Below, one piece after another: positions 2,430 to 24,700 of a stretch of DNA of 64,000 nt. Location of the stretch: NCBI GenBank assembly GCA_037783545.1, contig JBBELK010000301.1, positions 1 through 64,000 on the forward strand. Direction: 5' to 3'. Position 1 is the stretch's first letter, and each line of letters begins with the position of its first letter. Origin of the DNA: Henricia sp. BOLD:AAB3569. Taxonomy: Eukaryota > Echinodermata > Asteroidea > Spinulosida > Echinasteridae. The translations under genes were made by a program, and so were the position numbers. The notes beneath the pieces are model-generated. The model saw only the letters and a list, made by a program, of their open reading frames with translations, made no database searches and was not told the origin of the DNA.

Positions 2430-2703
2430 GTGTGTCCCAAATGCCGGCAAATTTGGAAATCAAGGAATTTTCCAACCAACTTCAAATTTTGCATGCTCCA
2501 AACTGTATATATTCCGCACTTGTCATGCAAAATTGACAGATTTTCGCTGGGAAATGACGGAGAAATTTCAGAGTTTAGGGAAAACGGAGCTCGGCTGCGT
2601 GGTTATTCCCCTAACCGTGGCTGTTGGGACACCCTGCGCATGCGCTGGTGTACATTTGTACGGCCGTTGACTCACCCCAGATTGTGACGGGAATTAGGTC
2701 AAA
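2430..2703 (+). repeat. Representative class A monomer (274 bp)
   Basis: Same unit as class C, but the junction is the perfect 10-bp palindrome GCGCATGCGC (2636-2645) followed by TGG. Class A occurs only left of 13,633 in this window. It differs from class AC by loss of a 5-bp CGCGC-like block, and class C differs from AC by loss of ATGCGC. Either loss could arise by slippage between GCGC direct repeats. Confidence 0.93.
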
Positions 2704-5700
2704 GTGTGTCCCAAATGCCGGCAAATTTGGAAATCAAGGAATTTTCCAACCAACTTCAAATTTTGCATGCTCCAAACTGTATATATTCCGCACTTGTCAT
2801 GCAAAATTGACAGATTTTCGCTGGGAAATGACGGAGAAATTTCAGAGTTTAGGGAAAACGGAGCTCGGCTGCGTGGTTATTCCCCTAACCGTGGCTGTTG
2901 GGACACCCTGCGCCGCGCTGGTGTACATTTGTACGGCCGTTGACTCACCCCAGATTGTGACGGGAATTAGGTCAAAGTGTGTCCCAAATGCCGGCAAATT
3001 TGGAAATCAAGGAATTTTCCAACCAACTTCAAATTTTGCATGCTCCAAACTGTATATATTCCGCACTTGTCATGCAAAATTGACAGATTTTCGCTGGGAA
3101 ATGACGGAGACAATTCATAGTTTAGGGAAAACGGAGCTCGGCTGCGTGGTTATTCCCATAACCGTGGCTGTTGGGACACCCTGCGCATGCGCTGGTGTAC
3201 ATTTGTACGGCCGTTGACTCACCCCAGATTGTGACGGGAATTAGGTCAAAGTGTGTCCCAAATGCCGGCAAATTTGGAAATCAAGGAATTTTCCAACCAA
3301 CTTCAAATTTTGCATGCTCCAAACTGTATATATTCCGCACTTGTCATGCAAAATTGACAGATTTTCGCTGGGAAATGACGGAGAAATTTCAGAGTTTAGG
3401 AAAAACGGAGCTCGGCTGCGTGGTTATTCCCCTAACCGTGGCTGTTGGGACACCCTGCGCCGCGCTGGTGTACATTTGTACGGCCGTTGACTCACCCCAG
3501 ATTGTGACGGGAATTAGGTCAAAGTGTGTCCCAAATGCCGGCAAATTTGGAAATCAAGGAATTTTCCAACCAACTTCAAATTTTGCATGCTCCAAACTGT
3601 ATATATTCCGCACTTGTCATGCAAAATTGACAGATTTTCGCTGGGAAATGACGGAGAAATTTCAGAGTTTAGGGAAAACGGAGCTCGGCTGCGTGGTTAT
3701 TCCCCTAACCGTGGCTGTTGGGACACCCTGCGCATGCGCTGGTGTACATTTGTACGGCCGTTGACTCACCCCAGATTGTGACGGGAATTAGGTCAAAGTG
3801 TGTCCCAAATGCCGGCAAATTTGGAAATCAAGGAATTTTCCAACCAACTTCAAATTTTGCATGCTCCAAACTGTATATATTCCGCACTTGTCATGCAAAA
3901 TTGACAGATTTTCGCTGGGAAATGACGGAGAAATTTCAGAGTTTAGGGAAAACGGAGCTCGGCTGCATGGTTATTCCCCTAACCGTGGCTGTTGGGACAC
4001 CCTGCGCATGCGCTGGTGTACATTTGTACTGCCGTTGACTCACCCCAGATTGTGACGGGAATTAGGTCAAAGTGTGTCCCAAATGCCGGCAAATTTGGAA
4101 ATCAAGGAATTTTCCAACCAACTTCAAATTTTGCATGCTCCAAACTGTATATATTCCGCACTTGTCATGCAAAATTGACAGATTTTCGCTATGAAATGAC
4201 GGAGAAATTTCAGAGTTTAGGGAAAACGGAGCTCGGCTGCGTGGTTATTCCCCTAACCGTGGCTGTTGGGACACCCTGCGCATGCGCTGGTGTACATTTG
4301 TACGGCTGTTGACTCACCCCAGATTGTGACGGGAATTAGGTCAAAGTGTGTCCCAAATGCCGGCAAATTTGGAAATCAAGGAATTTTCCAACCAACTTCA
4401 AATTTTGCATGCTCCAAACTGTATATATTCCGCAATTGTCATGCAAAATTGACAGATTTTCGCTGGGAAATGACGGAGAAATTTCAGAGTTTAGGGAAAA
4501 CGGAGCTCGGCTGCGTGGTTATTCCCCTAACCGTGGCTGTTGGGACACCCTGCGCCGCGCTGGTGTACATTTGTACGGCCGTTGACTCACCCCAGATTGT
4601 GACGGGAATTAGGTCAAAGTGTGTCCCAAATGCCGGCAAATTTGGAAATCAAGGAATTTTCCAACCAACTTCAAATTTTGCATGCTCCAAACTGTATATA
4701 TTCCGCACTTCTCATGCAAAATTGACAGATTTTCGCTGGGAAATGACGGAGACATTTCAGAGTTTAGGGAAAACGGAGCTCGGCTGCGTGGTTATTCCCC
4801 TAACCGTGGCTGTTGGGACACCCTGCGCATGCGCTGGTGTACATTTGTACGGCCGTTGACTCACCCCAGATTGTGACGGGAATTAGGTCAAAGTGTGTCC
4901 CAAATGCCGGCAAATTTGGAAATCAAGGAATTTTCCAACCAACTTCAAATTTGGCATGCTCCAAACTGTATATATTCCGCACTTGTCATGCAAAATTGAC
5001 AGATTTTCGCTGGGAAATGACGGAGAAATTTCAGAGTTTAGGGAAAACGGAGCTCGGCTGCGTGGTTATTCCCCTAACCGTGGCTGTTGGGACACCCTGC
5101 GCCGCGCTGGTGTACATTTGTACGGCCGTTGACTCACCCCAGATTGTGACGGGAATTAGGTCAAAGTGTGTCCCAAATGCCGGCAAATTTGGAAATCAAG
5201 GAATTTTCCAACCAACTTCAAATTTTGCATGCTCCAAACTGTATATATTCCGCACTTGTCATGCAAAATTGACAGATTTTCGCTGGGAAATGACGGAGAA
5301 ATTTCAGAGTTTAGGGAAAACGGAGCTCGGCTGCGTGGTTATTCCCCTAACCGTGGCTGTTGGGACACCCTGCGCCGCGCTGGTGTACATTTGTACGGCC
5401 GTTGACTCACCCCAGATTGTGACGGGAATTAGGTCAAAGTGTGTCCCAAATGCCGGCAAATTTGGAAATCAAGGAATTTTCCAACCAACTTCAAATTTTG
5501 CATGCTCCAAACTGTATATATTCCGCACTTGTCATGCAAAATTGACAGATTTTCGCTGGGAAATGACGGAGAAATTTCAGAGTTTAGGGAAAACGGAGCT
5601 CGGCTGCGTGGTTATTCCCCTAACCGTGGCTGTTGGGACACCCTGCGCATGCGCTGGTGTACATTTGTACGGCCGTTGACTCACCCCAGATTGTGACGGG

Positions 5701-13911: not shown

Positions 13912-15831
13912 GTGTGTCCCAAATGCCGGCAAATTTGGAAATCAAGGAATTTTCCAACCAACTTCAAATTTTGCATGCTCCAAACTGTATATATTCCGCA
14001 CTTGTCATGCAAAACTGACAGATTTTCGCTGGGAAATGACGGAGAAATTTCAGAGTTTAGGGAAAACGGAGCTCGGCTGCGTGGTTATTCCCCTAACCGT
14101 GGCTGTTGGGACACCCTGCGCCGCGCTGGTGTACATTTGTACGGCCGTTGACTCACCCCAGATTGTGACGGGAATTAGGTCAAAGTGTGTCCCAAATGCC
14201 GGCAAATTTGGAAATCAAGGAATTTTCCAACCAACTTCAAATTTTGCATGCTCAAAATGTATATATTCCGCACTTGTCATGCAAAATTGACAGATTTTCG
14301 CTGGGAAATGACGGAGAAATTTCAGAGTTTAGGGAAAACGAAGCTCGGCTGCGTGGTTATTCCCCTAACCGTGGCTGTTGGGACACCCTGCGCCGCGCTG
14401 GTGTACATTTGTACGGCCGTTGACTCACCCCAGATTGTGACGGGAATTAGGTCAAAGTGTGTCCCAAATGCCGGCAAATTTGGAAATCAAGGAATTTTCC
14501 AACCAACTTCAAATTTTGCATGCTCCAAACTGTATATATTCCGCACTTGTCATGCAAAATTGACAGATTTTCGCTGGGAAATGACGGAGAAATTTCAGAG
14601 TTTAGGGAAAACGGAGCTCGGCTGCGTGGTTATTCCCCTAACCGTGGCTGTTGGGACACCCTGCGCCGCGCTGGTGTACATTTGTACGGCCGTTGACTCA
14701 CCCCAGATTGTGACGGGAATTAGGTCAAAGTGTGTTCCAAATGCCGGCAAATTTGGAAATCAAGGAATTTTCCAACCAACTTCAAATTTTGCATGCTTCA
14801 AACTGTATATATTCCGCACTTGTCATGCAAAATTGACAGATTTTCGCTGGGAAATGACGGAGAAATTTCAGAGTTTAGGGAAAACGGAGCTCGGCTGCGT
14901 GGTTATTCCCCTAACCGTGGCTGTTGGGACACCTGCGCCGCGCTGGTGTACATTTGTACGGCCGTTGACTTACCCCAGATTGTGACGGGAATTAGGTCAA
15001 AGTGTGTCCCAAATGCCGGCAAATTTGGAAATCAAGGAATTTTCCAACCAACTTCAAATTTTGCATGCTCCAAACTGTATATATTCCGCACTTGTCATGC
15101 AAAATTGACAGATTTTCGCTGGGAAATGACGGAGAAATTTCAGAGTTTAGGAAAAACGGAGCTCGGCTGCGTGGTTATTCCCCTAACCGTGGCTGTTGGG
15201 ACACCCTGCGCATGCCCCGCGCTGGTGTACATTTGTACGGCCGTTGACTCACCCCAGATTGTGACGGGAATTAGGTCAAAGTGTGTCCCAAATGCCGGCA
15301 AATTTGGAAATCAAGGAATTTTCCAACCAACTTCAAATTTTGCATGCTTCAACCTGTATATATTCCGCACTTGTCATGCAAAATTGACAGATTTTCGCTG
15401 GGAAATGACGGAGAAATTTCAGAGTTTAGGGAAAACGGAGCTCGGCTGCGTGGTTATTCCCCTAACCGTGGCTGTTGGGACACCTGCGCCGCGCTGGTGT
15501 ACATTTGTACGGCCGTTGACTTACCCCAGATTGTGATGGGAATTAGGTCAAAGTGTGTCCCAAATGCCGGCCAATTTGGAAATCAAGGAATTTTCCAACC
15601 AACTTCAAATTTTGCATGCTCCAAACTGTATATATTCCGCACTTGTCATGCAAAATTGACAGATTTTCGCTGGGAAATGACGGAGAAATTTCAGAGTTTA
15701 GGGAAAACGGAGCTCGGCTGCGTGGTTATTCCCCTAACCGTGGCTGTTGGGACACCCTGCGCATGCGCCGCGCTGGTGTACATTTGTACGGCCGTTGACT
15801 CACCCCAGATTGTGACGGGAATAAGGTCAAA
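13912..15831 (+). repeat. 1,920-bp HOR, copy 1 (7 monomers)
   Basis: Units start at 13912, 14185, 14457, 14730, 15002, 15281 and 15553. Diagnostic marks are GCAAAACTGACAG in the first unit, ACGAAGCTCGG in the second, GCTTCAA with CACCTGCGCC and GACTTACCCC in the 272-bp units (14730, 15281), AGGAAAAACGG with GCATGCCCCGCG in 15002, and GGGAATAAGGTC at the boundary. The same start order resumes at 15832. Confidence 0.88.
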
Positions 15832-17176: not shown

Positions 17177-17200
17177 CATTACGAATTTCTCCCATTTAAA
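17177..17200 (+). repeat. Left terminal inverted repeat (24 bp)
   Basis: It starts CATTACGAATTTCTCCC and continues ATTTAAA. It is perfectly complementary to 20349-20372 over 24 bases, and identity stops abruptly after that. It directly abuts the satellite base 17176. Confidence 0.95.
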
Positions 17201-17204
17201 CGAA

Positions 17205-17230
17205 TCCGAGTTGGAGCTTTCTAACTCGGA
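17205..17230. other. Subterminal hairpin next to the left TIR
   Basis: TCCGAGTT (17205-17212) pairs with AACTCGGA (17223-17230). Inside this a G-T pair and two further pairs close over a GCTT loop. It lies five bases inside the left TIR. No matching hairpin was found at the right end, so the two ends of the element are not symmetrical beyond the TIRs. Confidence 0.7.
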
Positions 17231-17729
17231 AAGAGCGCATCGCATTCAAAAGTGACAGCTGTTCCCAGCGGACATAATTGTAATAGCCCCTTGTGGGTCA
17301 CAGCCAAGGTAGTAATAGCCTATTGACCTCTATAAGTGTACATTGTGCCACCTGGGTAATGGAATTGACTGGTTATTTTCATCATGGAGGTAGGAATGTT
17401 TTCATCCACTGATGGTAGTTATCAATGGTTGCTGCAATAACCACCAGCTTCATGCGTAGGAATATGAAAATAAGAAAACATGGAAATTAAGTCATTATCA
17501 CTTAAAGTTAAATTTAATAATCTATATGTTAATTTTGTTGGGTCCAAACAACTCGGTCCTGTCTCAGAGTTTGGGTGGAATTTTTATCACTTAGGCCTAC
17601 ATGTAGCAGGAAAAGCACAAAAGTGTGAAGTACATGTACGTTGCTTCAAATGGTTTAAGGACTGATTTACAGAGTACACAGGGAGTCACTCGTGCCATTC
17701 ATACCTGTTAAGCATATGTATTTGACACA
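17231..17729. other. Insert interior, no recognised gene
   Basis: AT-rich unique sequence. GTAATAGCC occurs twice (17280-17288 and 17312-17320). A 61-codon open frame at 17480-17665 has no recognisable domain and is of chance length. CATGTA-type motifs (17599-17605, 17631-17638) recur through the insert. Nothing else is supported. Confidence 0.6.
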
Positions 17730-18053
17730 ATGTATGGTTTGACCAGGGTAGTAGAAAAGTTGTTGAACCTTGAACTCCAAAAAAAAAAATTGTCCGAAAG
17801 ACACAAGGCACAACAACTAAAACAAAGCACACCTTCAATGAAGCAACTTATTGACAATTTAGTTTCAAATATCAATAACAGGAGTATCCGACAAGGCAAT
17901 TTTCAAATTAATTTTAATAAAAGCGGAAAACAAGAACCCATGCAAAGATCATGCATTATAATTAGTCCTGTTCCACTTGGGAGAAAAGCAATTTTCCCAT
18001 GTTATGAAAATGTTGTCCCCAACAAATTGGAACAGCATTTATGTAATGTATGA
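17730..18053 (+). CDS. Hypothetical ORF, 107 aa, unrecognised
   Basis: The longest ATG-initiated open frame in the insert, preceded in frame by TAA near 17708. The first 50 residues are lysine-, glutamine- and leucine-rich (ELQKKKLSERHKAQQLKQ) and could form a short helix or coiled coil. The C-terminal part holds two cysteines (SCIIIS and FPCYEN) and ends LCNV. No signal peptide, membrane segment or catalytic motif is visible and no family is recognised. A run of nine A's lies inside the coding part, so a single length error would break it. It could be a remnant exon carried by the element or a chance ORF. No splice or promoter evidence supports expression. Confidence 0.2.
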   Translation: MYGLTRVVEKLLNLELQKKKLSERHKAQQLKQSTPSMKQLIDNLVSNINNRSIRQGNFQINFNKSGKQEPMQRSCIIISPVPLGRKAIFPCYENVVPNKLEQHLCNV

Positions 18054-18256
18054 CATTTTAAAGACAGATCCAGAACCACAATTGTTACCAGTAAAACTTC
18101 AAGGCTCTGACGTTCCGTACTTTCTTGTATTTTTCACAGATTAAACGTATCTCAATCCAAGAGTTGTTGTCTGTCCTCTTCCCAATTTATTTGAAGCAAA
18201 TTAAGGGCCACACATACAGAATATTATATATGGGGGTACAGTACGAAAACAACCTT

Positions 18257-18511
18257 TTATATAGCTCCATGCTTTAAATAAGAAACATGCAGAGTGTTTC
18301 TATCAATTGCTCTGTAGCGTATACCTGGAAAAATATTACCCCGTACAGAACCAGATATTTCATGGACCGTGACGCAGATTTTCCCATGTACGTTTTCAAA
18401 CTGAGCGGGTGGAGAGCGCACCTCAACTATATGAGTCGCCATTATTTTCAACACACCCATTACTCTAGCTCTCTCTATTATCAACCATGTACATGTATAG
18501 AAAATTATCAT
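18257..18511 (-). CDS. Possible short ORF, 84 aa, minus strand
   Basis: Open frame beginning MIIFYTCTW and containing an internal methionine in the context ATGGCGACTC, which would give a 61-residue product starting MATHIVEVRSPP. The second start has the better animal-type context, and many animal first exons start with ATGGCG. No domain is recognised. The opposite strand is also open over most of this span (18287-18580, 97 codons), so at most one is real and both may be chance. The plus-strand version is not listed because it shows no homology signal either. Confidence 0.12.
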   Translation of the reverse strand: MIIFYTCTWLIIERARVMGVLKIMATHIVEVRSPPAQFENVHGKICVTVHEISGSVRGNIFPGIRYRAIDRNTLHVSYLKHGAI

Positions 18512-18607
18512 ATAAAATCATGTGTTCATCAGAAAGAACAGTTGGAGAAACGATCGAAGCATATGGCGTGTACATGTTAAGAAACATGTCGCTGCTAGCT
18601 TGCTTGA

Positions 18608-19093
18608 TACAAGCTGTATTTCGGGGTTATATTACTCCGTCGAAAGTTGTTCGGAACAAAATATAATCCATCTCTACCGTACAAAGAGTGGACAAAGTTG
18701 AGGTTGTTGACGAAATCCATTCAATATTACACCCATCAAAATTTAGCAGAGTATCCATCAAATAAAGGGCTCTTTGCAGGTGTCACATTTGTTTTAGTTG
18801 GTGCAGTCCCTAAACAGGCTGGGAATAAATGGACTCATGAGACACTTCAGCAAAAACTAGTTTCTCTTCGTGGCAAAGTAAGCAATGCCCTACCAGGCAA
18901 CACTAAGTGACAGTCAACAAAAATTTACCATATCCCTGTCAATGAGCAAGCAATAATCAATTCCAAGAAAATTCCAGATATTGCAAGAGAGGCCATACAA
19001 CGGAGATATCCGGTCCGAATACAAATTCGATCATCTTCGACAGTATTAAAAGCAACACCCAAATTTGCAAAGACAATTACATGCCGGACCTAA
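18608..19093 (+). pseudogene. BRCT-domain-like fragment, interrupted by a stop
   Basis: One frame is open from 18608 to a TGA at 18908-18910 and then for 60 more codons to TAA at 19091-19093. Before the stop it contains GLFAGVTFVLVGAVP and LQQKLVSLRGKVSN. After the stop it has KKIPDIAREAIQRRYPV. This order (hydrophobic FVLVG strand, amphipathic helix, GGKV-like turn, then an 'SKK...A...YPV' segment) resembles a BRCT domain as in PARP or repair proteins. The characteristic WxxxC helix is not seen, and the Gly-Gly turn reads RG. There is no good ATG at the 5' end. It is best read as a decayed exon or captured host fragment inside the transposon. The family assignment is tentative. Confidence 0.3.
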
Positions 19094-19744
19094 TCAAACT
19101 ACTCAGGAAAAATTAATCAGCAACCAACACTTCATGACAAACATTTTTGTAAGAAAACACGAATGATAAGCCTCATTAAAAAAACAAAAGAAAGATACAT
19201 GCATCATGATAAATTGCCTCACAGCACTTCAAACTTGACATTTTGCCAAAGAAAAACCTGAAACGCGGTTGTACAATATATGTTAGCAAAACTGCTACAT
19301 ATGTGCTTGCATAATTAAATATGCCGCATCTTTGATTTTGTGTAAAGCTGCGCCAACAGTTTATTTGTTGCAAATAATATTCAACAAACATTCGGTCCCA
19401 TGGGAACAAAATACTTATGTTGTTGTTGTGTTTGCGCTCTAATCAGCTGTACATCATTATTCAAGTTTTATTGAATCAAATCTACATTGTGTGAAAAAAT
19501 GCTGTATCTGCTATGACAGGGTTGTTGAGACCTTAGGACACAATTTACACATTGGCAAGTGAACACGTACCCCTCCCCCTCCCACTACAAACACCTTGAA
19601 TAAAATGGATCATTGAAGATTGTAAAAATGGGGACGACAAATAAAAACATTTTGAAAGGAAATGGGGGCATATACATGTACCCCTTAAGACTTACTTGAT
19701 GTCGCACATTTCCAAGAATTAATTACTTAATTTTTGTTGTTTAC
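19094..19744. other. Insert interior, no recognised feature
   Basis: AT-rich sequence with short A runs and a C-rich stretch (CCCCTCCCCCTCCC, 19570-19583). A 77-codon minus-strand open frame at 19176-19409 shows no domain. There is no tRNA-type A or B box upstream of the SINE-like tail. Confidence 0.55.
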
Positions 19745-19806
19745 AGCTCCTTGAGCACCCTGCAGGGTGGATATGTGCGCTTTACAAATTATTATTTATT
19801 ATTATC
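19745..19806 (+). repeat. SINE/LINE-type 3' tail fragment
   Basis: It reads GAGCACCCTGCAGGGTGGAT, then ATGTGCGCTTTACAAAT and a TTATTATTTATTATTAT run. Tails of the form GCGCTTTACAAAT(TATT)n are, to my knowledge, common 3' ends of short retroelements in marine invertebrates. It contains a perfect 14-bp palindrome, CACCCTGCAGGGTG (19756-19769). No SINE head is visible, so it is probably a truncated copy nested in the transposon. Confidence 0.4.
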
Positions 19807-20348
19807 CCACACACAAACAAGTGGGGTGGTGGACTTCCTTCGCCATTCCCTTTGGAAACAACAAATATAAATTAATATTCATTTCACTGTGTTGAAAAAC
19901 AATCTGAGGTTTAAACTTTCTCAGCATTTGGGTACGGGTGTGCATAATCTGAATCTAGATTCAGTACTACATGTACAATGGAGGGAACCCTGCATCAAAT
20001 AACTACTTGTACGAACAATTGTGTATACGCACAAATCCTACATACTGTATGAGATAGCCTATGTACCTACCTACATGTACAATGTGGGCCACTTATTATA
20101 ATTTTCCCCCAAGTTTGTGTGGAAATTCTCAGAGGAGTGCTAATGGATTGAACTTAGTTGACCCAGGGTCAGAGCACCATCAGTTGGGAATTCCCCTGGA
20201 CCACATGTTGGTGACGTTTGTAGACTGTTAGCATATCACAACTGGCATGTTTTAGGAGGGGTTGAGTGATTAGACTAATACTTATCCCCAGAGGAGACAC
20301 GTTCCCATTAATCTTCTCTCCGAAAAGGATGTGGGATTTTTAGAGAAT
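19807..20348. other. Insert interior, right part, no gene
   Basis: Unique sequence with no ORF of note. Palindromes include GAATCTAGATTC near 19952 and GGGAATTCCC at 20186-20195; the latter also fits a symmetric kappa-B consensus. TGACCCAGGGTCA near 20159-20171 is an imperfect inverted repeat. GAGAATTTT just inside the right TIR resembles GAGAAATTC within it. Confidence 0.55.
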
Positions 20349-20372
20349 TTTAAATGGGAGAAATTCGTAATG
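20349..20372 (-). repeat. Right terminal inverted repeat (24 bp)
   Basis: It reads TTTAAAT on its inner side and ends GGGAGAAATTCGTAATG. It is the exact reverse complement of 17177-17200. The next base, 20373, resumes the interrupted monomer with TGACGGG. The last two bases (TG) could alternatively be a 2-bp target duplication of 17175-17176. Confidence 0.95.
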
Positions 20373-21761: not shown

Positions 21762-24700
21762 GTGTGTCCCAAATGCCGGCAAATTTGGAAATCAAGGAAT
21801 TTTCCAACCAACTTCAAATTTTGCATGCTCCAAACTGTATATATTCCGCACTTGTCATGCAAAATTGACAGATTTTCGCTGGGAAATGACGGAGAAATTT
21901 CAGAGTTTAGGAAAAACGGAGCTCGGCTGCGTGGTTATTCCCCTAACCGTGGCTGTTGGGACACCCTGCGCATGCCCCGCGCTGGTGTACATTTGTACGG
22001 CCGTTGACTCACCCCAGATTGTGACGGGAATTAGGTCAAAGTGTGTCCCAAATGCCGGCAAATTTGGAAATCAAGGAATTTTCCAACCAACTTCAAATTT
22101 TGCATGCTCCAAACTGTATATATTCCGCACTTGTCATGCAAAATTGACAGATTTTCGCTGGGAAATGACGGAGAAATTTCAGAGTTTAGGGAAAACGGAG
22201 CTCGGCTGCGTGGTTATTCCCCTAACCGTGGCTGTTGGGACACCCTGCGCCGCGCTGGTGTACATTTGTACGGCCGTTGACTCACCCCAGATTGTGACGG
22301 GAATTAGGTCAAAGTGTGTCCCAAATGCCGGCAAATTTGGAAATCAAGGAATTTTCCAACCAACTTCAAATGTTGCATGCTCCAAACTGTATATATTCCG
22401 CACTTGTCATGCAAAATTGACAGATTTTCGCTGGGAAATGACGGAGAAATTTCAGAGTTTAGGGAAAACGGAGCTCGGCTGCGTGGTTATTCCCCTAACC
22501 GTGGCTGTTGGGACACCCTGCGCATGCGCCGCGCTGGTGTACATTTGTACGGCCGTTGACTCACCCCAGATTGTGACGGGAATTAGGTCAAAGTGTGTCC
22601 CAAATGCCGGCAAATTTGGAAATCAAGGAATTTTCCAACCAACTTCAAATTTTGCATGCTCCAAACTGTATATATTCCGCACTTGTCATGCAAAATTGAC
22701 AGATTTTCGCTGGGAAATGACGGAGAAATTTCAGAGTTTAGGGAAAACGGAGCTCGGCTGCGTGGTTATTCCCCTAACCGTGGCTGTTGGGACACCCTGC
22801 GCATGCGCCGCGCTGGTGTACATTTGTACGGCCGTTGACTCACCCCAGATTGTGACGGGAATTAGGTCAAAGTGTGTCCCAAATGCTGGCAAATTTGGAA
22901 ATCAAGGAATTTTCCAACCAACTTCAAATGTTGCATGCTCCAAACTGTATATATTCCGCACTTGTCATGCAAAATTGACAGATTTTCGCTGGGAAATGAC
23001 GGAGAAATTTCAGAGTTTAGGGAAAACGGAGCTCGGCTGCGTGGTTATTCCCCTAACCGTGGCTGTTGGGACACCCTGCGCCGCGCTGGTGTACATTTGT
23101 ACGGCCGTTGACTCACCCCAGATTGTGACGGGAATTAGGTCAAAGTGTGTCCCAAATGCCGGCAAATTTGGAAATCAAGGAAATTTCTAACCAACTTCAA
23201 ATTGTGCATGCTCCAAACTGTATATATTCCGCACTTGTCATGCAAAATTGACAGATTTTCGCTGGGAAATGACGGAGAAATTTCAGAGTTTAGGGAAAAC
23301 GGAGCTCGGCTGCGTGGTTATTCCCCTAACCGTGGCTTTTGGGACACCCTGCGCCGCGCTGGTGAACATTTGTACGGCCGTTGACTTACCCCAGATTGTG
23401 ACGGGAATTAGGTCAAAGTGTGTCCCAAATGCCGGCAAATTTGGAAATCAAGGAATTTTCCAACCAACTTCAAATTTTGCATGCTCCAAACTGTATATAT
23501 TCCGCACTTGTCATCCAAAATTGACAGATTTTCGCTGGGAAATGACGGAGAAATTTCAGAGTTTAGGGAAAACGGAGCTCTGCTGCGTGGTTATTCCCCT
23601 AACCGTGGCTGTTGGGACACCCTGCGCATGCGCCGCGCTGGTGTACATTTGTACGGCCGTTGACTCACCCCAGATTGTGACGGGAATTAGGTCAAAGTGT
23701 GTCCCAAATGCCGGCAAATTTGGAAATCAAGGAATTTTCCAACCAACTTCAAATGTTGCATGCTCCAAACTGTATATATTCCGCACTTGTCATGCAAAAT
23801 TGACAGATTTTCGCTGGGAAATGACGGAGAAATGTCAGAGTTTAGGGAAAACGGAGCTCGGCTGCGTGGTTATTCCCCTAACCGTGGCTGTTGGGACACC
23901 CTGCGCCGCGCTGGTGTACATTTGTACGGCCGTTGACTCACCCCAGATTGTGACGGGAATTAGGTCAAAGTGTGTCCCAAATGCCGGCAAATTTGGAAAT
24001 CAAGGAATTTTCCAACCAACTTCAAATTTTGCATGCTCCAAACTGTATATATTCCGCACTTGTCATGCAAAATTGACAGATTTTCGCTGGGAAATGACGG
24101 AGAAATTTCAGAGTTTAGGGAAAACGGAGCTCGGCTGCGTGGTTATTCCCCTAACCGTGGCTGTTGGGACACCCTGCGCCGCGCTGGTGTGCATTTCTAC
24201 GGCCGTTGACTCACCCCAGATTGTGACGGGAATTAGGTCAAAGTGTGTCCCAAATGCCGGCAAATTTGGAAATCAAGGAATTTTCCAACCAACTTCAAAT
24301 TTTGCATGCTCCAAACTGTATATATTCCGCACTTGTCATGCAAAATTGACAGATTTTCGCTGGGAAATGACGGATAAATTTCAGAGTTTAGGGAAAACGG
24401 AGCTCGGCTGCGTGGTTATTCCCCAAACCGTGGCTGTTGGGACACCCTGCGCCGCGCTGGTGTACATTTGTACGGCCGTTGACTCACCCCAGATTGTGAC
24501 GGGAATTAGGTCAAAGTGTGTCCCAAATGCCGGCAAATTTGGAAATCAAGGAATTTTCCAACCAACTTCAAATTTTGCATGCTCCAAACTGTATATATTC
24601 TGCACTTGTCATGCAAAATTGACAGATTTTCGCTGGGAAATGACGGAGAAATTTCAGAGTTTAGGGAAAACGGAGCTCGGCTGCGTGGTTATTCCCCTAA

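Follow-up and report, generated by a model that had tools for sequence, protein, structure and literature searches.

What kind of element enters a tandem satellite with perfect terminal inverted repeats (TIRs) at its ends and leaves no target-site duplication (TSD)? The question is raised by a 3,196-bp insert at positions 17177–20372 of a 64,000-nucleotide stretch from the echinoderm Henricia sp. BOLD:AAB3569 (assembly GCA_037783545.1, contig JBBELK010000301.1, positions 1 to 64,000), hereafter the window, which is one 273-bp tandem array broken by the insert. We read the insert as a non-autonomous, internally deleted copy of a cut-and-paste TIR transposon family, in which the putative transposase is the giant protein of a long relative, with IQ and BRCT toward its C-terminus and, in its middle, a putative RNase H-like DDE core. 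We put the probability of this reading at about 0.72. The assignment of the whole insert, on the forward strand, draws on full-length copies elsewhere in the genome and on collinearity with the long relative, C641.

Insertion in the satellite without duplicated bases

The element is bounded by perfect 24-bp inverted repeats (CATTACG...CGTAATG), the left one at 17177–17200 on the forward strand and the right one at 20349–20372 on the reverse strand. These ends, proposed in a preliminary description made from the sequence alone, were confirmed as the same 24 bases inverted. The last target base before the element, 17176, joins 20373 with zero duplicated bases. Two intact paralogous empty sites had been named, at 14982/14983 and 21742/21743; both were recovered, together with a third at 23398/23399, and the 40-bp junction formed by joining the flanks without the insert is found intact at 14963, 21723 and 23379.

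The monomer across the site, CAGATTGTGACGG, occurs 194 times in the window, while the variants tried that lack one or two bases occur 0 times. Thus, the window copy gained exactly the element and nothing more. Junction-spanning alignments, taken from the window and from fetched loci, some of which overlap, bear out a net gain of exactly the element length, with a net gain of 0 bp in 314 of 315 and of 1 bp in one. The same counts reject a 2-bp TG duplication hidden in an overlap with the right TIR, as had been suggested. A hidden TG is also not supported because other copies end in CATTACG and CGTAATG whatever base flanks them, with two exceptions, C266a and C258.

Dispersed copies with the same ends

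The genome searched is a eukaryotic assembly of 740,731,340 bases in 2,104 contigs. Allowing up to 3 mismatches, the 24-bp TIR matched 53 places forward and 51 in reverse, a total of 104, while the reversed control gave 0 and 1. This count is far beyond chance. Among the 100 matched places listed, both ends were located in 43 copies, which with C232 and C641 make 45 rows. C520 and C1969 have common flanks, leaving 44 distinct insertions. The outcome named in advance as speaking for a one-off event, no second copy anywhere, was therefore not what the genome held. A search with the whole element, in which the best 40 of 383 candidates were scored, returned 85 matched pieces, and among these were at least five further copies over all 3,196 bases at 95–97% identity.

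The outermost bases of the located copies are CATTACG and CGTAATG independent of the flanking bases. The exceptions are C266a, with one changed TIR base, and C258, in which the outermost base differs at both ends. Apart from these two, exact TIRs stand at both ends of many dispersed copies, as in class II elements, and the copies occupy unrelated flanks and several satellite phases. At C188 (221455–226295, L103) two left element ends, separated by 4.8 kb, have the same orientation and identical flanks of satellite, which suggests that a truncated copy was duplicated along with the satellite.

Target-site duplications of 0, 1 and 2 bp

Each joined flank was compared with paralogous empty sites. 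Spanning hits were obtained for 29 of the 45 rows (16 had none), and 27 rows were usable after two had been dropped by hand, one a duplicate (C1969, of C520) and one spurious (C147, where the match is the element's own end). Genome-wide searches for empty sites covered 19 of the 32 non-satellite sites, each with the best 40 candidates out of thousands scored; the other sites were compared only with loci already in the comparison set.

The net gain was 0 bp at 9 of the 27 sites (C301, which is the window copy, C861, C2024, C152, C1198, C1568, C137, C213 and C611), 1 bp at 14 (C520, C57, C66, C1077, C553, C1666, C1639, C366, C307, C96, C192, C260, C175 and C232) and 2 bp at three (C674, CG; C1487, AT; C1623, AT). 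The remaining site, C127, gave −1 bp and is a weak case at 85% identity, so that insertion proceeded without loss of host bases at 26 of the 27. Three values were set by hand: C861 to 0, though the script printed 1, from a gap about 6 bp off the junction; C192 to 1, where the script was split between 27 hits at 1 and 25 at 4; and C611 to 0, where its two scripted values were 0 and −1. The readings for C137, C213, C127, C553 and C307 are of lower certainty. A TSD of fixed length, usual though not universal for class II elements, is not seen in this set. The comparison of at least 10 copies with their empty sites, as proposed in the preliminary description, thus fixed the ends of the element and yielded no single TSD length.

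The flanks alone, at 44 sites, have matching single bases in 28 cases (11.4 expected by chance) and matching stretches of two bases in 8 (2.9 expected). A mixture fitted to these flanks assigned 0.33, 0.51–0.53 and 0.14 to duplications of 0, 1 and 2 bp, with bootstrap ranges of 0.17–0.52, 0.32–0.68 and 0.03–0.25, and improved the log likelihood by 19.9 over a model with no TSD and by 6.3 over one with 0 or 1 bp. Longer duplications received 0.02, owed to one 5-bp match at C118. This copy (C118:187493–192409) is the only one with a 5-bp flank match, TTACT on both sides, and has no empty site by which duplication could be separated from chance.

A family strictly without TSD is rejected by the gains of 1–2 bp at empty sites together with the mixture fit. 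Similarly, a strict 1-bp TSD is rejected by the clean zero-gain sites C301, C1198, C1568 and C2024 and by the clean two-base gains AT, AT and CG. Some one-base differences could be explained by homopolymer errors; the two-base gains (AT, CG) and the clean zero of the window copy at TTG|TGA are not explained in this way. The duplication left by the family varies from 0 to 2 bp, and the absence of a TSD first described is a property of the window copy and not of the family as a whole.

As to the target, there is only a weak tendency to T on the left and A on the right. The choice of target looks loose, with satellites and 5S gene arrays among the sites hit. Two copies lie within 5S arrays, C232 and, judged by its flanks, C192, and each is read as a 1-bp duplication. 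The array at C232 (C232:520700–530520, L104:1–9821) has a unit of about 187 bp and contains 49 5S ribosomal RNA (rRNA) genes in 9.8 kb.

Long relatives with coding capacity

The C232 copy (C232:529875–534524; 4,650 bp) adjoins the 5S rRNA genes and carries a 361-codon frame with BRCT_2 (E = 6e-7) and IQ (E = 2e-4), both over the Pfam cut-offs. Its upstream exon gave four genome matches, three identical and one of 71% with stops, and pointed to C641. The C641 element is 12,006 bp long, its ends differ from the 24-bp TIR at 1 and 2 positions, and it holds a 1,624-codon open reading frame (ORF), the giant ORF. When this frame was searched whole, BRCT_2 was over the Pfam cut-off and IQ slightly under it. 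One base, T|T, is common to the two flanks of C641, which would fit a 1-bp duplication; among the loci compared, none was an empty site for it. A second long copy, C1512, has 96% protein identity to C641 over 662 residues.

The ratio of replacement to synonymous substitution rates (dN/dS) was 0.41 for C641 against C1512 (11 synonymous, 17 replacement) and 0.40–0.59 for the short copies against C641. Taken with a further value discussed below, most of the set fits past selection on the protein, with small counts.

The upstream exon of the long element in C641 (113279–113482, in L101 and L107) encodes 68 amino acids (MAGKFPIGS...) and has four genome matches; it has no Pfam match, and we presume from its look a Tudor/chromo-like character. 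The Cys/His motifs in the N-terminal part of the giant ORF are perhaps reminiscent of a ubiquitin-type protease. Two other long copies were rejected as candidates for coding copies. C96 carries a nested retroelement-like ORF, and C258 is missing most of the gene and contains other insertions. The nested insertion in C96 (L031:589–4878) has a 337-codon ORF, presumably gag-like by its look; it is flanked by two identical stretches of 91 codons, possibly long terminal repeats.

The window copy as an internal-deletion derivative

Aligned to C641, the window copy is collinear in five blocks on the forward strand. The left terminal region (17177–17539, element positions 1–363) corresponds to C641 1–339 at 88% identity. 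At a deletion junction (17535–17539), about 6.9 kb of C641 (340–7240) is absent. A decayed remnant of the central region of the giant ORF follows (17535–18108, element 359–932, C641 7241–7905) and was also detected as 17637–18293, with 52% amino acid identity and 5 stops. A further decayed remnant (18212–19201, element 1036–2025, C641 7908–8885) covers the region of the candidate catalytic Glu and the IQ and BRCT part; here 18635–19243 has 66% amino acid identity to the IQ/BRCT part and 2 stops. Beyond it, C641 8886–10877 is unaligned in the window copy, a 3' non-coding region (19211–19685, element 2035–2509) matches C641 10878–11370 at 76%, and the right terminal region (19806–20372, element 2630–3196) matches C641 11527–12006.

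The first and second of the candidate catalytic acids have their codons (C641 6988 and 7216) within the 6.9-kb deletion. In all 22 short copies compared, the frame is missing to at least position 3227, so that D992 and D1068 are gone. The coding remnant starts at frame position 3227 in 20 of the 22, at 3228 in C266a and at 3502 in C55, which has a larger deletion. Each short copy has 21–30 frame-breaking gaps, counted over BLAST pieces, and 1–4 stops relative to the C641 frame, and 21 of the gap places are common to at least 18 of the 22. The shared breakpoint and the shared frame breaks indicate that a single dead founder spread. Mutual identity among the 22 copies is 97.4–99.7% over ungapped columns (gapped BLAST identities are lower), which argues that the spread was fairly recent. 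Very probably, the spread of the dead founder used protein made elsewhere. The small indels of the short copies, 17177–20372 included, are unusually many for a dN of about 0.05 relative to the C641 frame.

A conserved core in the giant protein

Residues 930–1420 of the C641 frame match two other loci, C340 and C162, at about 33% amino acid identity (31–33% over about 460–510 residues for C340). The C340 homologue, around C340:2772220–2772576 (L112), is an open frame of 587 codons, and the C162 homologue (C162:1024191–1025612) has one stop. In an alignment of C641, C1512 and C340, three sequences of which two are 98% identical, the invariant acids include one D each in WGDG/FGDA and in SGDEMF/GADSMF, those of a DSR.N.E.NLG block and those of TE.GEH. 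From this alignment, and by analogy to RNase H-like transposases of other kinds, we propose D992, D1068 and either E1363 or E1366 as a candidate catalytic triad.

No Pfam transposase model was matched by the C641 protein (1,604 amino acids at E up to 1; pieces at E up to 10) or by the C340 protein (587 amino acids, E up to 10). We take Pfam to contain both a model for the PHIS superfamily (PIF/Harbinger-ISL2EU-Spy) and a profile for KDZ (Kyakuja-Dileera-Zisupton). The NCBIfam search, made with the coding relative C641 only, gave no transposase match either. Together these searches make an undescribed family plausible. Searches of viral contigs, of phages and of genomes of prokaryotes confirmed no relative.

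Several points weigh against our reading. The core of C641 matched neither Pfam transposases nor NCBIfam nor Protein Data Bank (PDB) sequences, and the only Pfam row on it is a sub-threshold one, CutC (E 0.016 and 0.007; 15–16 bits, cut-off 23), which we take as a chance match. The terms transposase and DDE are thus putative, applied from position inside the TIRs, size and the acids conserved among three sequences. The C641 stop lies downstream of the BRCT domain, at a place where C232 continues for 95 residues, and in C1512 the left end is lost and the frame is broken by a stop and frameshifts; because of this damage, no intact source is demonstrated. What answers to the longer autonomous copy that the preliminary description proposed to look for is a 12,006-bp coding relative. 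Additionally, the dN/dS of 0.83 for C641 against C232 (2 synonymous, 6 replacement) lends no support to selection. In the main coding piece, the identity to C641 is only about 84% for the window copy and for the other short copies printed, so that C641 is possibly not their helper. Finally, the gene could in principle have been captured by the element, a possibility raised on finding BRCT and IQ. Capture of a host gene is weakened by a frame that runs through the 1,624-codon ORF of a longer element whose ends are the same, and by the presence of the core in C340 and C162, which argue that it is a family of its own.

Proposed mechanism and alternative explanations

Under the proposed transposon mechanism, a protein supplied in trans would bind the 24-bp TIRs and excise the element exactly at C|...|G. 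The two 3' ends would then be joined to target phosphates either directly opposed or offset by one or two nucleotides, and gap repair after such near-blunt joining would leave 0–2 duplicated bases. The BRCT/IQ tail may have a role in complex assembly or in the recruitment of repair. DDE chemistry is suggested by the motifs. We give even odds to the broader proposal of an undescribed superfamily of eukaryotic DNA transposons, whose giant transposase would combine upstream exons with IQ, BRCT and a DDE-like core some 500 residues long, and whose near-blunt target cut would vary in stagger, such that one family leaves 0–2 bp.

Could the family instead belong to PHIS, for example through Spy-like blunt integration with occasional slippage of 1–2 bp? 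We consider this unlikely. PHIS includes elements without TSD and elements with TSDs of 1–4 bp, according to the available part of one account (PMC10045372). Moreover, one of the 44 sites, C1568, lies exactly between AAA and TTT. Spy itself inserts between AAA and TTT without duplication, as stated in the accessible text of another paper (PMC11304231), whereas here bases were gained at 17 of 27 sites and the targets are mixed. The failure of the C641 and C340 proteins to match any Pfam transposase model at the E-values given above also counts against PHIS.

A different possibility, for which the chances appear slim, is an element with no recombinase of its own, whose excised, exact-ended linear DNA host end-joining puts into breaks with overhangs of 0–2 nt while the BRCT protein recruits the machinery. 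Variable gains of 0–2 bp and the BRCT domain of the encoded protein would suit this mechanism. End-joining should often delete target bases, whereas a loss was read at one of 27 sites only, at 85% identity, and the element ends are exact in the located copies with two exceptions. We find it highly improbable that the insert is a tyrosine- or serine-recombinase, Helitron or Crypton/DIRS-type element, likewise TSD-less, as is the window copy. Perfect TIRs and varied 1–2 bp duplications at 17 of 27 sites are unlike a crossover at a shared core, and a Pfam search with the long ORF at E up to 1 brought up no family of recombinases, HUH proteins or helicases. A one-off rearrangement or assembly artefact in the satellite would be favored by the difficulty of assembling tandem arrays; this is refuted by the number of copies that have these same ends while their flanks are unrelated and their satellite phases several, and we give it practically no weight.

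Significance

The length of the TSD is commonly used as a signature of transposase superfamilies and reflects how far apart the two joining sites lie on the target. If the proposed transposon is real, a joining distance of 0, 1 or 2 bp together with a large BRCT protein would extend the range of DDE-type recombinases, and the geometry of near-blunt strand transfer would become testable. For annotators, an absent TSD in one copy says little about its family. If the core represents a new transposase family, unannotated relatives may exist in other eukaryotic genomes; C340 and C162 are two further loci with the same core in this genome.

Comparison with known transposons

Judged by their published descriptions, none of Spy, PHIS, IS481EU, Kyakuja, Zisupton and Plavaka fits. 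KDZ elements have large proteins. Kyakuja termini are CA..TG, a likeness to the present family, whereas Kyakuja has TSDs of 7 bp and no TIRs and Zisupton has TSDs of 8 bp, as given in the part of the source available (PMC12730594). TSDs of 7–8 bp were not found here, and neither was a Pfam transposase match. The same excerpt describes Plavaka (CMCT) with short TSDs and PlavakaB with a terminus that starts with CA, similar to our element; the PlavakaB termini are CATCA..TGATG with TSDs of 2 or 3 bp (PMC12730594). Here, too, a Pfam transposase match was not obtained for the present family. KolobokP, with TSDs of 3–5 bp in the accessible portion of its description (PMC9587614), does not fit.

In the literature, of which our coverage is incomplete, we found no paper that links BRCT to a transposase in the way meant here, nor any that names a family with a 1-bp TSD, though PHIS as a whole is said to include 1-bp TSDs in the text available to us (PMC10045372). 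Spy shares with the window copy the insertion of a TIR DNA transposon without target duplication (PMC11304231, PMC4482050, each in the part accessible). It differs in being TSD-less at AAA|TTT with a PHIS transposase, while the family described here has no profile match, gained 1–2 bp at 17 of 27 sites and hit AAA|TTT only at C1568. In IS481EU, several TSD lengths occur in one family, about 4, 15 and 25 bp, as far as the available passage goes (PMC10045372). Our family resembles IS481EU in having more than one TSD length; a matching domain was not found in it, and its own lengths run from 0 to 2 bp.

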